NCBI RefSeq assembly: GCF_963678835.1
Contig: NZ_OY787469.1
Span: forward strand, 3,641,001-3,705,000
DNA from: an uncultured Desulfuromonas sp.
GTDB taxonomy: Bacteria; Desulfobacterota; Desulfuromonadia; Desulfuromonadales; Desulfuromonadaceae
Direction of reading: 5' to 3'
DNA length: 64,000 nt
Part shown: piece by piece, positions 49,120-55,090 of the stretch
How positions within the stretch are numbered: the first letter of the stretch is position 1
Layout of the letters: each line of letters begins with the position of its first letter
Made by a program: the position numbers and the translations under genes
Notes under the pieces: model-generated
Seen by the model: only the letters and a program-made list of their open reading frames with translations
Told to the model about the DNA's origin: nothing
Databases searched by the model: none

Positions 49120-49125
49120 CCAGGC

Positions 49126-49144
49126 GTGCCAAAAGTGGCACACT
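49126..49144 (+). promoter_or_regulatory. Inverted repeat upstream of the hydrogenase-like regulator
   Basis: GTGCCA-N4-TGGCAC (49126-49141), extended to GTGGCACACT (49135-49144). That ten-base string is the exact complement of AGTGTGCCAC in the inverted repeat at 51551-51579 behind the same gene. Both may be binding sites of the regulator encoded between them. Confidence 0.5.
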
Positions 49145-49254: not shown

Positions 49255-51543
49255 ATGACAGGACCGATCAAAACCGTCAAAGAGCGCTGCCGGAAATGCT
49301 ACGCTTGCGTCAGAAACTGCCCGGTCAAAGCGATTAAAGTCAAAGCCAATTATGCCGAAGTGATCTATCCACGCTGTATCGGTTGCGGCAAATGTATTGC
49401 CGTCTGCACCCAAAAAGCCAAAATCATCGCCGACAGCAGTGAAGAGACCCGCCAGTTCCTTGCCACGGCCAAAAAAACCGTGGCGGTTCTCGGCTGCTCC
49501 TTTCCGGCATTTTTTCATGATGCCAGCCCCGGCCAATTGGTCACCGGTCTAAAGCGACTCGGCTTCTCCGAGGTTCATGAGGGTGCGTCCGGCGTTGAAC
49601 TGATCTCAGATTCGTATATGGATCAGGTCGAACAGTCTCCGGACCAGCCACTGATCAGCACCCACTGTCCGACCATCGTCGACCTGATCGAGCGCCACTA
49701 CCCGCAGATGCTAAAAAACCTGATGACCACGGTATCACCGATGATTGCCATCGGCCGCTTTATCAAGGCCCACCACGGTGAGGATGTGCGCGTTATCTAC
49801 ATCAGCTCATGCATTGCCGGTAAATTTGAAATTGCCGCCGAGCAGGTGGCCGGTGCGATTGACGGGGTTCTGACCTATAAGGAACTCAGCCAGATGTTCC
49901 GCCAGCAGAAGCTCGACCTCAACCGACTCGGCACCACGCCGTTTGACGGTCTGGAGCCGCAAAAAGGGCGGCTCTTTCCGATCACGGGGGGACCGTTTCA
50001 GGTGTTCAATGTCAACGACGATTTCTTCCATCCGCAATTTATCTCAACCGAAGGGGAAGAAAACTCGCTGGAGATCATTCGCGATCTGGCCGCCGGTCGC
50101 ATTCAGGCCCGTCTGGTGGACATTCGCTTCTGCAATGGCGGCTGTATCGGCGGACCGGGTAAAAACAACCGTTTGACCACCTTTGCCAAACGGACCCTGA
50201 TTCATCAATATTTTCAAAGCGGGTCAATCACCTACAACACCAACCCCGCCTACCACAACGCCACGCCGACAATGAATCTGTCGCGCACATTTCGCAACAA
50301 ACATAAACGCCTCGACCTTCCCGGTGGCGACAGTATCCGCAAAATCCTTCAACAGACCAACAAAGTCTGTGAGCAAGACGAGCTCGATTGTGGCGCCTGT
50401 GGCTACGATACCTGCCGCGAACATGCCATTGCCGTCTATCAAGGGCTGGCGGATATTGAGATGTGCCTGCCCTACTCGCTGCAACGCCTGGAAGAGGACC
50501 GTGTCATTCTTGCCCAGAAATACGAACTGGCCAAACATGCCCTGTCCCAGGAATTCGGCGAAGTAGAAATTGTCGGCAAAGACCCCCATACCATTGAGGT
50601 GCTCAACCTGATCCGTCAGGTCGGGCCAACCCCGACAACGGTTCTGATCCGTGGTGAAAGCGGCACCGGCAAGGAACTCACGGCCCGCGCCATCCACCAG
50701 ATGAGCCAACGGGCCGACAAAACCCTGGTCACCCTTAACTGCACCACCCTCACCGACAGCCTGTTGGAAAGCGAACTGTTTGGCCACAAAAAGGGCGCCT
50801 TTACCGGTGCCTTGGCAGACAAACGCGGCCTGTTTGAAGCGGCCAACGGCGGCACGATCTTCCTCGATGAGATTGGCGATATCACTCCCAAACTGCAGGC
50901 GGAGTTACTGCGCGTGCTCGACAGTGGTGAGATCCGCCCGGTGGGAGGCAACAGCAGCCGCCAAGTCGATGTTCGCCTGATCGCCGCGACCAACAAAAAT
51001 CTTGAGCAAGGCGTCACTGATGGCTGGTTTCGTGAAGACCTTTTTTACCGACTAAATGTGTTCTCCATCACCATGCCGCCACTACGCAGTCGTCTCGACT
51101 CCTTAGAAGCCCTGGTGGAACAATTTCTCCGCAGCACCAGTAAACGGGTGAATAAAACCATCGACAGCATTGACCGCCGCGCCATTGAAGCCATGCGTAA
51201 CTACCAGTGGCCGGGCAACATCCGCGAACTGCAGAACATCATCGAACGAGCGGCCGTACTGACCCAGGACAACTGTATCCATTTGGAAAACCTGCCGGTT
51301 GTGTTTACGGAGCTGATCGCCAAGCACCACGATGACCCGGACCAACCCTCGACATCGTTCCGCGACAGCCTTGAGCGCCAACTGCAACTGATCGAAAAAG
51401 GCCTGCTGAAAAGTTATCTTGAGCAAACCCAGGGCAACGTTTCAGAGGCGGCCCGGCGCGCCCAGTTGCCGCGCCGTAGCATGTACCGCCTGCTGGAACG
51501 CCACAATCTGAGCGGTGAAGATTATCGGTCTGGCGAAAAGTGA
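49255..51543 (+). CDS. Sigma-54 activator with ferredoxin and FeFe-hydrogenase-like sensor domains
   Basis: 762 residues from ATG 49255 (AAAGGA six bases ahead; the longer frame from 49126 is rejected). Order: two 4Fe-4S motifs (CRKCYACVRNCP, CIGCGKCIAVC, residues 9-60); an H-cluster-type domain with THCPT near 137, SSCIAGK near 185 and FCNGGCIGGPG near 292-296, so the four cubane-ligand cysteines remain while the proton-relay Cys of TSCCP is His; an Fe-S motif CGACGYDTC near 379; a sigma-54 AAA+ domain (about 435-690) with GESGTGKE and GAFTGA; and a Fis-type helix-turn-helix (about 725-755). Best read as an H2- or redox-sensing enhancer-binding protein. Confidence 0.93.
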   Translation: MTGPIKTVKERCRKCYACVRNCPVKAIKVKANYAEVIYPRCIGCGKCIAVCTQKAKIIADSSEETRQFLATAKKTVAVLGCSFPAFFHDASPGQLVTGLKRLGFSEVHEGASGVELISDSYMDQVEQSPDQPLISTHCPTIVDLIERHYPQMLKNLMTTVSPMIAIGRFIKAHHGEDVRVIYISSCIAGKFEIAAEQVAGAIDGVLTYKELSQMFRQQKLDLNRLGTTPFDGLEPQKGRLFPITGGPFQVFNVNDDFFHPQFISTEGEENSLEIIRDLAAGRIQARLVDIRFCNGGCIGGPGKNNRLTTFAKRTLIHQYFQSGSITYNTNPAYHNATPTMNLSRTFRNKHKRLDLPGGDSIRKILQQTNKVCEQDELDCGACGYDTCREHAIAVYQGLADIEMCLPYSLQRLEEDRVILAQKYELAKHALSQEFGEVEIVGKDPHTIEVLNLIRQVGPTPTTVLIRGESGTGKELTARAIHQMSQRADKTLVTLNCTTLTDSLLESELFGHKKGAFTGALADKRGLFEAANGGTIFLDEIGDITPKLQAELLRVLDSGEIRPVGGNSSRQVDVRLIAATNKNLEQGVTDGWFREDLFYRLNVFSITMPPLRSRLDSLEALVEQFLRSTSKRVNKTIDSIDRRAIEAMRNYQWPGNIRELQNIIERAAVLTQDNCIHLENLPVVFTELIAKHHDDPDQPSTSFRDSLERQLQLIEKGLLKSYLEQTQGNVSEAARRAQLPRRSMYRLLERHNLSGEDYRSGEK

Positions 51544-51550
51544 GCCATTC

Positions 51551-51579
51551 GTGACACACTCGCAAAAAAAGTGTGCCAC
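51551..51579 (+). promoter_or_regulatory. Candidate enhancer site for the sigma-54 activator
   Basis: GTGACACACT (51551-51560) and AGTGTGCCAC (51570-51579) form an inverted repeat with one mismatch around CGCAAAAAA. No T-run follows, so it is not a terminator. It lies 145-170 bases upstream of the predicted sigma-54 transcription start, a normal enhancer distance. Confidence 0.6.
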
Positions 51580-51696
51580 AAAGAGCACATCTTTACGCCA
51601 TTTTTTACCGCAGAGCGACAAACACCTTAACCCGATAAAAACAAAAAATACGCAATTTTAACAAGTTACAAATATTTCTATTTCTTTCGAGAAAGA

Positions 51697-51712
51697 TGGC
51701 ATGCTCGCTGCA
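51697..51712 (+). promoter_or_regulatory. Sigma-54 (-24/-12) promoter
   Basis: TGGCATGCTCGCTGCA matches TGGCACG-N4-TTGCW at the essential GG (51698-51699) and GC (51710-51711) with exact 12-base spacing; two non-essential positions differ. Transcription should start near 51722. Confidence 0.7.
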
Positions 51713-51721
51713 AACATACCC

Positions 51722-51832
51722 AGCCATACTAAATTGATACGGGAGCTACAACATTTCTACCCCCTTTCAGAAATAACCTCCCAACTTTATACGCCGTACC
51801 GGGATCTCTCTCCCCCGGACGGCGTTTTTTTT
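51722..51832 (+). ncRNA. Predicted sigma-54-dependent small RNA
   Basis: Between the sigma-54 start and a strong terminator lie about 110 bases without a credible gene. The RNA should fold as nested stems GGGAG/CTCCC (51741-51745 with 51778-51782) and ATTTCT/AGAAAT (51753-51758 with 51769-51774), exposing the loop ACCCCCTTTC (51759-51768). A C-rich loop next to CCTCCC could pair with ribosome sites of target mRNAs. The remaining part of the 631-base gap, 51833-51970, shows nothing. Prediction from sequence only. Confidence 0.6.
51791..51832 (+). terminator. Terminator of the predicted small RNA
   Basis: ACGCCG (51791-51796) and CCGGG (51799-51803) pair with CCCGG (51814-51818) and CGGCGT (51820-51825), followed by eight T in total (51825-51832). 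Strong intrinsic terminator, far from any preceding stop codon (about 250 bases after the regulator gene). Confidence 0.92.
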
Positions 51833-51971
51833 GCCTTCCCCACAGGGCAAACGCAGGAGAGTGGCCGTAAACAGGTGATCGTCCGCACCAGACAACCGAC
51901 CACCTGCACTCTGCTTGCTGCGATTCTGACTTGCGCCAAAGCCGGACAGGCATGTCCATCAGACAATGACC

Positions 51972-52001
51972 TTGCCGCTAAAACCGCCTTCATGCTATGA
52001 T
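51972..52001 (+). promoter_or_regulatory. Promoter of the yebC-ruvCAB unit
   Basis: TTGCCG (51972-51977), 18-base spacer, TATGAT (51996-52001), about 170 bases before yebC. Confidence 0.55.
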
Positions 52002-54061: not shown

Positions 54062-55090
54062 ATGACGGACCGCTTGATCAGTGCCGAACTCAGCGATGAA
54101 GACAACATCGACAATCCGTTGCGGCCACGCACCCTGAATGAATACATCGGCCAGGAAAAAGCCAAAGAGAACCTCGAAGTGTTCATCCAGGCAGCGCTCA
54201 ATCGCAACGAAGCTCTGGATCACGTGCTGTTTTACGGCCCCCCCGGACTGGGCAAGACCACCCTGGCCAACATCATCGCCAGTGAAATGGGTGTCAGCAT
54301 CAAAAGCACCTCCGGCCCGGTCATTGAAAAAGCCGGCGACTTAGCCGCCATCCTTACGAACCTCGAGGAGGGCGACGTGCTGTTCATCGATGAAATCCAC
54401 CGATTATCTCCGATTGTAGAAGAGATCCTCTACCCAGCCATGGAGGATTACCAGATCGACATCATGATCGGCCAAGGGCCCTCTGCGCGGACCATTAAGC
54501 TGGATATTCCCCGCTTTACCCTGGTGGGCGCTACCACCCGTGCCGGGCTGCTTTCCTCGCCGCTGCGCGACCGTTTTGGTGTCATTTGCCGACTACAATT
54601 TTACACGCACGAACAACTGGCCATCATCGTCAAACGCAGCGCCTCCATTCTCGGCGTACCCATTGACGAAAAAGGCGCTCTGGAGATCGCCCGCCGCAGC
54701 CGGGGCACACCGCGCATTGCCAATCGCCTGCTGCGCCGCGTCCGCGATTTTGCCGAGGTCCAAAATGATGGCAGTATTACCTGTGACATTGCTGACACAG
54801 CCCTGACCCGTCTCGAGGTTGACAAAATCGGCTTTGACCACATGGACTGCCTGATGCTACAGACCATCATGGATAAATTTTCCGGCGGACCGGTTGGTCT
54901 GGACACGCTTGCGGCGGCAATCGGCGAAGAGAAAGACACGATTGAAGAAGTGATTGAGCCGTATCTGCTCCAACAGGGCTATCTCAATCGGACCCCGCGC
55001 GGGCGCATGGTCACCGAACAGGCTTACCGCCACTTTCACCGTCAGCCAAAAGGAAAACAGGCCGACATGTTCCAATCCGAAGGTTTATAA
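54062..55090 (+). CDS. ruvB: Holliday junction helicase RuvB
   Basis: AAA+ motor for branch migration. 342 residues from ATG 54062 with AGGAG five bases ahead (the GTG at 54056 overlaps that site). [14 protein letters not shown], Walker [13 protein letters not shown], Walker [10 protein letters not shown], sensor [18 protein letters not shown] and the winged-helix end [15 protein letters not shown] are intact. Ends a yebC-ruvCAB repair unit. Confidence 0.98.

Follow-up and report, generated by a model that had tools for sequence, protein, structure and literature searches.

CrcZ of Pseudomonas is a sigma-54-dependent RNA, the Qrr RNAs of Vibrio act by base pairing, and RoxS/RsaE and FsrA of the Firmicutes are not known to be driven by sigma-54. 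According to excerpts of PMC8871633, the gene for CrcZ forms a separate unit downstream of those encoding its activator system (CbrB), and the same arrangement is found at the locus described here, which was analyzed within a window of 64,000 nt (the whole stretch of DNA under study). CrcZ antagonizes catabolite repression under two-component control, whereas in the window one seed loop is combined with a hydrogenase-like sensor. The Qrr RNAs are likewise driven by sigma-54 and an enhancer-binding protein, LuxO (excerpts of PMC10162802), but they serve quorum sensing, and the RNA of the window has no Rfam match. RoxS/RsaE and FsrA contain C-rich regions and target mRNAs of central metabolism, including, for RoxS, that of the citrate synthase CitZ, and RoxS is raised by NO (available part of PMC8216469). 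The likeness thus lies in the chemistry and in the probable target, whereas the sequences are unrelated and the proposed seed of the RNA of the window is its terminator loop.

A protein system is also relevant. In the available text of PMC2725144, GSU3364 of Geobacter sulfurreducens has a predicted RpoN promoter, and the gene upstream of it encodes an enhancer-binding protein. GSU3364 is HgtR, for which excerpts of PMC7894505, PMC8691401 and PMC7726332 report induction by H2 and repression of citrate synthase (gltA); in the proteomes of PMC7894505 itself, HgtR was undetected. HgtR resembles the system proposed here in its reported induction by H2, in lowering citrate synthase and in its genetic arrangement, but it is a protein repressor, whereas the RNA of the window would act on translation. 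No earlier report of this RNA was found in the open-licence literature searched, a scope that excludes subscription papers, and the accessible portion of PMC2700814 holds nothing on this element.

The RNA gene and the hydrogenase-like activator

The features of the locus, in coordinates of the window, are:

49125..49142, no strand: dyad CGTGCCAAAAGTGGCACA, 5' of the activator gene, one mismatch to TGTGCC-N6-GGCACA
49255..51543, + strand: activator; Pfam ferredoxin, [FeFe]-hydrogenase C-terminal, FeS, sigma-54 AAA+ and Fis-type HTH domains
51541..51558, no strand: distal dyad copy TGAGCCATTCGTGACACA, two mismatches, overlapping the activator stop codon
51572..51589, no strand: proximal dyad copy TGTGCCACAAAGAGCACA, one mismatch, 124 bp before the promoter
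51696..51712, + strand: -24/-12 (sigma-54) promoter ATGGCATGCTCGCTGCA, from direct reading, with a counterpart in 71 of 72 parsed loci
51722..51832, + strand: gene of the small RNA (predicted length about 111 nt, start inferred from the promoter); conserved across the order
51741..51782, + strand: 5' nested hairpin, from folding, with a GGGAG/CUCCC outer stem and an inner loop with ACCCCCUUUC
51791..51832, + strand: 3' hairpin plus T-run, the terminator and carrier of the seed loop, from covariation
51804..51813, + strand: terminator loop AUCUCUCUCC, proposed mRNA-pairing seed; near-invariant, complement of the gltA ribosome site

Judged from its sequence, 51722-51832 holds a genuine gene for a structured small RNA. 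The predicted unit folds at -30 kcal/mol (z -4.29), and none of 200 shuffles equals it. The terminator stem spans 51791-51825 and is followed by eight T. The only open reading frame of at least 90 aa on the + strand across the RNA (51701-52000) continues past the terminator, and Pfam gave no match to it at E 0.001. The promoter has GG at 51698-51699 and GC at 51710-51711, and it is among three sites scoring at least 12.5 on both strands of the 64 kb in a simple consensus score of our own. These results agree with a reading made earlier from the sequence only, which had described a -24/-12 promoter with correct GG/GC spacing, about 110 bases without a plausible gene, nested hairpins and a strong terminator with eight T: the spacing is correct, and folding recovered both the nested hairpin and the terminator stem.

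In a search of the 64-kb window, no Rfam family reached its gathering score, and neither the Qrr nor the RsaE/RoxS models matched. The only sub-threshold matches at E values up to 5 were to ar14 (RF02344; 20.9 of 58.8, E 0.051) and LhrC (RF00616; 20.4 of 110, E 0.8), two small-RNA families with C-rich motifs; these scores are far below gathering and indicate no membership.

The activator has two ferredoxin-type cysteine motifs and GAFTGA in its sigma-54 AAA+ domain. It has a sequence match in the PDB to an Fe-hydrogenase alpha subunit (E 3.3e-22), and the nearest sequences to its hydrogenase-like domain are subunits of the alpha/HydA type. Among 31 aligned sequences, of which the window and L061 are one gene, SSC and FC..GGC are present in all 31 and HCP in at least 28, which provides what we take to be the four H-cluster cysteines. 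The residues that, on our assumption, mark an active [FeFe] hydrogenase, namely the proton-transfer cysteine of CCP and those surrounding the diiron site, were not found: in comparison with the enzymes, the first Cys of CCP is His, EVMAC is replaced by DIRFC, and MPC by SSC. We take the domain to be a sensor of H2 or redox state and not an enzyme, and H2 or redox as the signal seems moderately likely. This step, which the sequence-only reading had also proposed, stays conditional because the domain keeps the cluster cysteines but not the catalytic-site residues, and it is strengthened because hgtR of Geobacter, reported as an H2-induced repressor of citrate synthase, fits the target of the activator there.

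Conservation of the RNA, its promoter and a candidate activator site

A blastn search with 51680-51840 found the element in all nine other searched genomes of the genus at 72-98% identity; in one of these (G004), the match covers only the last 63 query bases, at 81% identity. The terminator part is present at 84-96% identity in many other families of the order. A covariance model, R1, was built on the 3'-terminal 57 nt at 29 loci, so that the promoter was excluded from it, and was searched in 226 genomes of the class. It matched at E 0.001 or better in 88 of the 226 genomes, 77 of them within the order of the window. Weaker matches in G000 (510801; L098) and G056 (C12; L102) look like ordinary terminators, as do the three that were read of the 11 outside the order (G142, G129 and G144; L099, L100 and L101). 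A strict DNA pattern of the hairpin, run over named genomes, retrieved 30 contigs: two carry the label Geobacteraceae, seven no more than Deltaproteobacteria, and the rest Desulfuromonadales or the names of members of that order, on which the use of this name for the order of the window is based. Geothermobacter hydrogeniphilus is among the carriers of the RNA.

In an alignment of 75 loci (69 distinct rows), which was fitted to R1 and is thus biased in favour of structure, 96.8% of the cells of the terminator stem are paired, and eight of the 11 pairs show two-sided changes. None of 500 shuffles reached the observed value of any measure; in slid controls, 38-57% of the cells were paired. The loop CUCUCUCC is near-invariant across the 75 loci although the stem changes; exceptions include G004 (AUCUCCCC), G033 (CACUCUCC) and G010 (UUCUCUCCUU). 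In the 5' domain, the GGG..CCC arrangement is frequent in other families, the inner hairpins are family-specific, and the folding signal is weak (mean z -1.11, n = 72; half below -1). Several loci of family f8 (L228, L240, L246, L251 and others) have a 5' hairpin that consists of a conserved CCGUUC-CCGCCC-GAACGG, unlike other families.

The promoter scores at least 12.4 of 14.4 in 71 of 72 parsed loci, compared with 26 of 14,400 shuffled upstream blocks; the single exception is G098 (11.2). The RNA lengths derived from the promoters range from 90 to 123 nt. The R1 matches of four genomes (G103, G080, G094 and G019), at E 9e-6 to 9e-4, do not count among the 72 because none has a properly placed promoter, and G023, in which the hairpin is kept and the promoter is absent, was never part of the set. 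The equally weak G102 (E 2e-5) was retained because its promoter is present. The choice of loci therefore leans towards the promoter, and if the five dropped hairpin loci are counted as failures, the proportion is 71 of 77. Also outside the 72 are L007 and L021, which were not parsed and in both of which a TGGCA..GC promoter is visible, and L096 (G020), with a promoter score of 13.2.

The first 430 residues of the activator match 174 of the 226 genomes at E 1e-60. By tblastn, the activator adjoins the RNA in 26 of the first 30 loci. Of the 77 genomes of the order with an R1 match, 66 have the RNA immediately 3' of the activator gene (64 by script, plus G112 and G057). In six others (G037, G048, G052, G044, G020 and G102), the RNA and its promoter are kept although the activator search gave no match. 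The remaining non-adjacent cases are G023, with the hairpin alone, and the weak, promoterless matches of G103, G080, G094 and G019. Conversely, R1 found no match in five genomes of family f4 (G105, G107, G016, G055 and G108), the activator matches of which are more distant (E 1e-108 to 1e-117). By eye, the RNA lies beside a dppD/dppF-type ABC transporter pair in the activator-less G052, G044 and G020 and in G023, and ptsP adjoins this pair in G044, G020 and G023; in G037, one dppD/dppF-type gene was recognized near the RNA.

A dyad, TGTGCCA-N4-TGGCACA, precedes the promoter of the RNA, often as two copies, which in the genus are 31 bp apart; this is the spacing between the distal and the proximal copy in the window and in the other listed two-copy loci of the genus. 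None of 200 shuffles of the upstream region contained a dyad as good as the proximal copy. At up to two mismatches, the dyad was found at 69 of the 72 RNA loci (shuffles, 68 of 7,200) and, within 250 bp upstream, at 29 of 30 activator loci (L061-L090; shuffles, 44 of 3,000); since these loci are orthologues and not independent, Fisher values for the dyad overstate its significance. The three RNA loci without it (L013 in G052, L025 in G044 and L260 in G102) are all from genomes without an activator match, and G020, another such genome, is likewise dyad-less. Thus, the dyad is missing in four of the six genomes that have the RNA and promoter but no activator match, and G037 and G048, with no activator match at E 1e-60, retain dyad, promoter and RNA. 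The dyad is a probable binding site of the activator, and the copy at 49125..49142 would be a probable autoregulatory site.

Therefore both marks of a sigma-54-dependent RNA, a conserved -24/-12 promoter at constant distance and an enhancer-binding protein with a putative site upstream (activator in 66 of 77 genomes, dyad at 69 of 72 loci), were observed. That 51722-51832 is a real sigma-54-dependent small RNA belonging to the adjacent activator appears to us very likely. The sequence-only reading had named such an RNA, had assigned its control to the adjacent activator, and had proposed as checks the conservation and covariation of 51722-51832 in related genomes and the retention of promoter and hairpins in relatives that carry the activator. 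Comparison supports the first of these claims by the promoter and the covarying terminator, and the second by the shared dyad and its absence from four of the six activator-less genomes that keep RNA and promoter; the element was present in every genome of the genus that was searched.

The dyad also occurs at other promoters. Elsewhere in genomes of the order, it lies 164-171 bp before sigma-54 promoters of genes for small RHH proteins, and 11 of 13 such promoters have it at up to two mismatches. In a search of 12 genomes for the exact dyad, the fetched dyads with a good downstream sigma-54 promoter belong to the RNA or to RHH genes. In each of the seven regions read from a sister order (families f23-f25), the activator gene is followed immediately by a sigma-54 promoter, upstream of which a dyad can be seen. 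What comes behind this promoter is not the RNA but a gene of 57-61 codons for an RHH protein (MG-MRENPRYNVISMR...). We infer that this order is Geobacterales and that the RHH gene is hgtR, the latter from arrangement and description, not from sequence comparison. Since the activator precedes an hgtR-like gene there, the RNA may exert at the level of mRNA the control that HgtR exerts at the level of DNA. More distant RHH genes occur in 21 of 58 relatives; the RHH protein was therefore not simply lost in the order of the window.

Candidate target mRNAs

The likeliest seed, as judged from the alignment, is the terminator loop. The earlier proposal that the loops pair with ribosome sites gains support from the results below. 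However, it is CUCUCUCC, in the loop of the terminator, that is conserved as a seed, whereas the loop ACCCCCTTTC that had been put forward was seen in the family of the window only.

A scan of 20 genomes for GGGGAGAG-N2..12-ATG, with loci L168-L197 read, revealed no recurrent target. GGAGAGA-N2..9-ATG was scanned in six genomes; 40 sites were fetched (20 from G000 and 20 from G027), 38 were parsed, and their reading gave citrate synthase and [NiFe] hydrogenase as leads before HgtR came up. Of the candidate genes, which also included formate dehydrogenase, enolase, PNPase and leuB, the follow-up covered citrate synthase in 30 + 30 genomes and hydrogenase in 30. The sites are in excess in five of the six genomes scanned; the sixth, the genome of the window, has 79 compared with 70 in the reversed control, which is no excess.

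GGAGAGA was present at the gltA ribosome site, mostly as AAAGGAGAGAGAG, in all 30 RNA-bearing genomes searched first. Among five further RNA-bearing genomes, it was found in G033, G004 and G102 and not in G010, and G012 had no gltA match. Altogether, 33 of the 34 RNA-bearing genomes with a gltA found have the motif. For five control genes, the motif occurred in four of 141 upstream sequences; the starts of these genes were extrapolated from tblastn, and several ptsP and some dppD rows are off the true starts, so that both are weak controls, and the activator, yebC and dppF alone gave three of 87. In the sister order, gltA had GGAGAGA at none of nine sites in eight genomes, with GGAG or GGAGAG instead. 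The match between loop and gltA site in the genome of the window is 7 nt long. In G010, the gltA site is AAGGAGAGTAT, and the altered loop UUCUCUCCUU pairs with AAGGAGAG over 8 nt. The loop of G033, CACUCUCC, pairs over 6 nt only, and G004 keeps GGAGAGA at gltA, yet has a loop, AUCUCCCC, without CUCUCUCC.

Genomes of the order that do not have the RNA were also analyzed. In this group, the gltA motif is present in nine of 16 (G077, G078, G079, G081, G083, G049, G040 and G096 of family f8, plus G041), and the motif therefore does not need this RNA. It is absent from G095 and from all six RNA-less genomes of family f4 (G016, G055, G107, G105, G036 and G047); G039, likewise RNA-less, had no gltA match and is outside the 16. 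These nine genomes and G004 are the main results against gltA as a target. They stand opposite the features expected of a trans-acting antisense RNA, a conserved unpaired seed and a complement in an mRNA, both of which were found. On balance, the terminator loop probably targets gltA directly.

Other CUCUCUC-loop hairpins were observed in three f8 genomes that do not have the sigma-54 RNA, G077 (L452), G094 (L454) and G103 (L259), and possibly represent a second RNA with the same seed. Those of G077 and G094 lie 3' of a gene that, by eye, resembles one for a glycolate-oxidase-type FeS protein. Such hairpins might stand in for the RNA in G077, G094 and G103, among which the gltA of G077 was read; a pattern search in the other eight RNA-less genomes that keep the motif gave no clear candidate for a stand-in RNA.

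For [NiFe] hydrogenases, 30 of 45 matches were read. One clade has the motif in 10 of 10 cases and the other clades in one of 20; the latter mostly use AAGGAGGA-type ribosome sites. The motif-bearing clade was not found at E 1e-15 in five searched genomes of the family of the window. Long complements of the loop are present in G027 at a [NiFe]-hydrogenase site (L331, GGAGAGAGG) and at a formate-dehydrogenase-like site (L333, GGAGAGAGAGG). Further GGAGAGA sites belong to formate dehydrogenase and enolase (G027) and leuB (G000).

Proposed mechanism, alternatives and further dyads

The explanation that we favour, and consider likely to be right, is a sigma-54-dependent trans-acting RNA that is driven by an H2/redox-responsive activator and would block translation of gltA-type mRNAs through its loop. 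The sensor domain would detect H2 or a strongly reduced electron pool, upon which the activator would bind the dyads and drive the RNA from the -24/-12 promoter. The loop CUCUCUCC would then pair with GGAGAGA-type ribosome sites, above all that of gltA, and block translation; where present, the ribosome site of the one [NiFe]-hydrogenase clade would likewise be blocked. The outcome would be less acetate oxidation via the citric acid cycle when H2 is available, and the RNA would be the counterpart of the H2-induced HgtR, whose gene this activator apparently controls in the sister order.

Alternatively, the locus could encode a real, activator-driven sigma-54 small RNA that has other mRNAs or several ribosome sites as its main targets, with the GGAGAGA of gltA unrelated to it. 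The retention of the motif in the nine RNA-less genomes and, despite the changed loop, in G004 would fit this, as would the pairing of only 7 nt in the genome of the window and the presence of GGAGAGA at formate dehydrogenase, enolase and leuB. GGAG itself is a ribosome-binding sequence, which also counts against the favoured explanation. However, ribosome binding requires GGAG(G), not GGAGAGAGAG; if the motif served the ribosome alone, its rarity at the control genes, the AAGGAGGA-type sites of the other hydrogenase clades, the GGAG or GGAGAG at gltA in the sister order and the joint difference of loop and gltA site in G010 would not be expected. We regard this alternative as rather unlikely. 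Titration of a protein (CsrA-like or C-binding) by the loops, in the manner of CrcZ, instead of pairing with mRNAs, appears far less probable still. The C-rich loops are exposed in the RNA, and CrcZ likewise lies downstream of activator genes, cbrAB, as a separate unit (excerpts of PMC8871633), but a single seed loop contrasts with many repeated binding motifs, and the near-invariant loop is complementary to ribosome sites. By eye, GGA motifs are inconsistent across families, and titration of CsrA through them was rejected.

Even less credence is due to the idea that the activator gene simply ends in an ordinary terminator hairpin, next to a promoter-like sequence that arose by chance, and that there is no separate RNA. 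A hairpin 3' of the activator would also stop read-through, and G023 has the hairpin without the promoter; against this stand the promoter at 71 of 72 parsed loci, the dyad in front of it, a loop that stays constant while the stem covaries, and the six genomes that retain RNA and promoter without an activator match.

Under the favoured explanation, the Desulfuromonadales, which are anaerobic acetate oxidizers and reducers of metals and electrodes, would gain an RNA that links H2 or redox state to the entry step of the citric acid cycle. The complementarity of the loop to the gltA ribosome site suggests such a link, by which H2 or redox state could lower acetate oxidation. A protein regulator and an RNA regulator would then occupy the same place of one circuit, and the hydrogenase-like domain fused to a sigma-54 activator would be offered a function. 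The locus supplies an RNA family with a promoter, a probable activator site, a seed and candidate targets. For a wider version, an order-wide H2/redox switch in which the RNA uses the loop of its own terminator to silence both citrate synthase and one [NiFe]-hydrogenase clade and holds the place behind the activator that the gene of HgtR has in the sister order, with distant RHH genes elsewhere in the genome still under the dyad, we see the chances as evenly balanced.

Additional dyads were recorded in the course of these searches. A small RHH gene at G000:C1:516537-516932 (L122, L204; MGRKKEHPKKHIVSCR...) has its own sigma-54 promoter with a dyad 164 bp upstream, and is probably a second member of the regulon of the activator. 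In the genome of the window, the exact dyad L166 lies inside a coding region and was rejected. The exact dyad L167 (G000:C1:2861085-2861102), between leuD and leuB, has no good sigma-54 promoter and was likewise set aside; a second dyad-like site accompanies it there. Since the leuB ribosome site is GGAGGAGAGAC and L167 is nearby, leuB could be touched by both the activator and the RNA. Within the window, the dyad-like TGTGACATTGCTGACACA at 54782-54799 lies in the ruvB reading frame and is probably a coding coincidence; similar dyad-like sites are present about 3 kb 3' of the RNA in G002 and G007.
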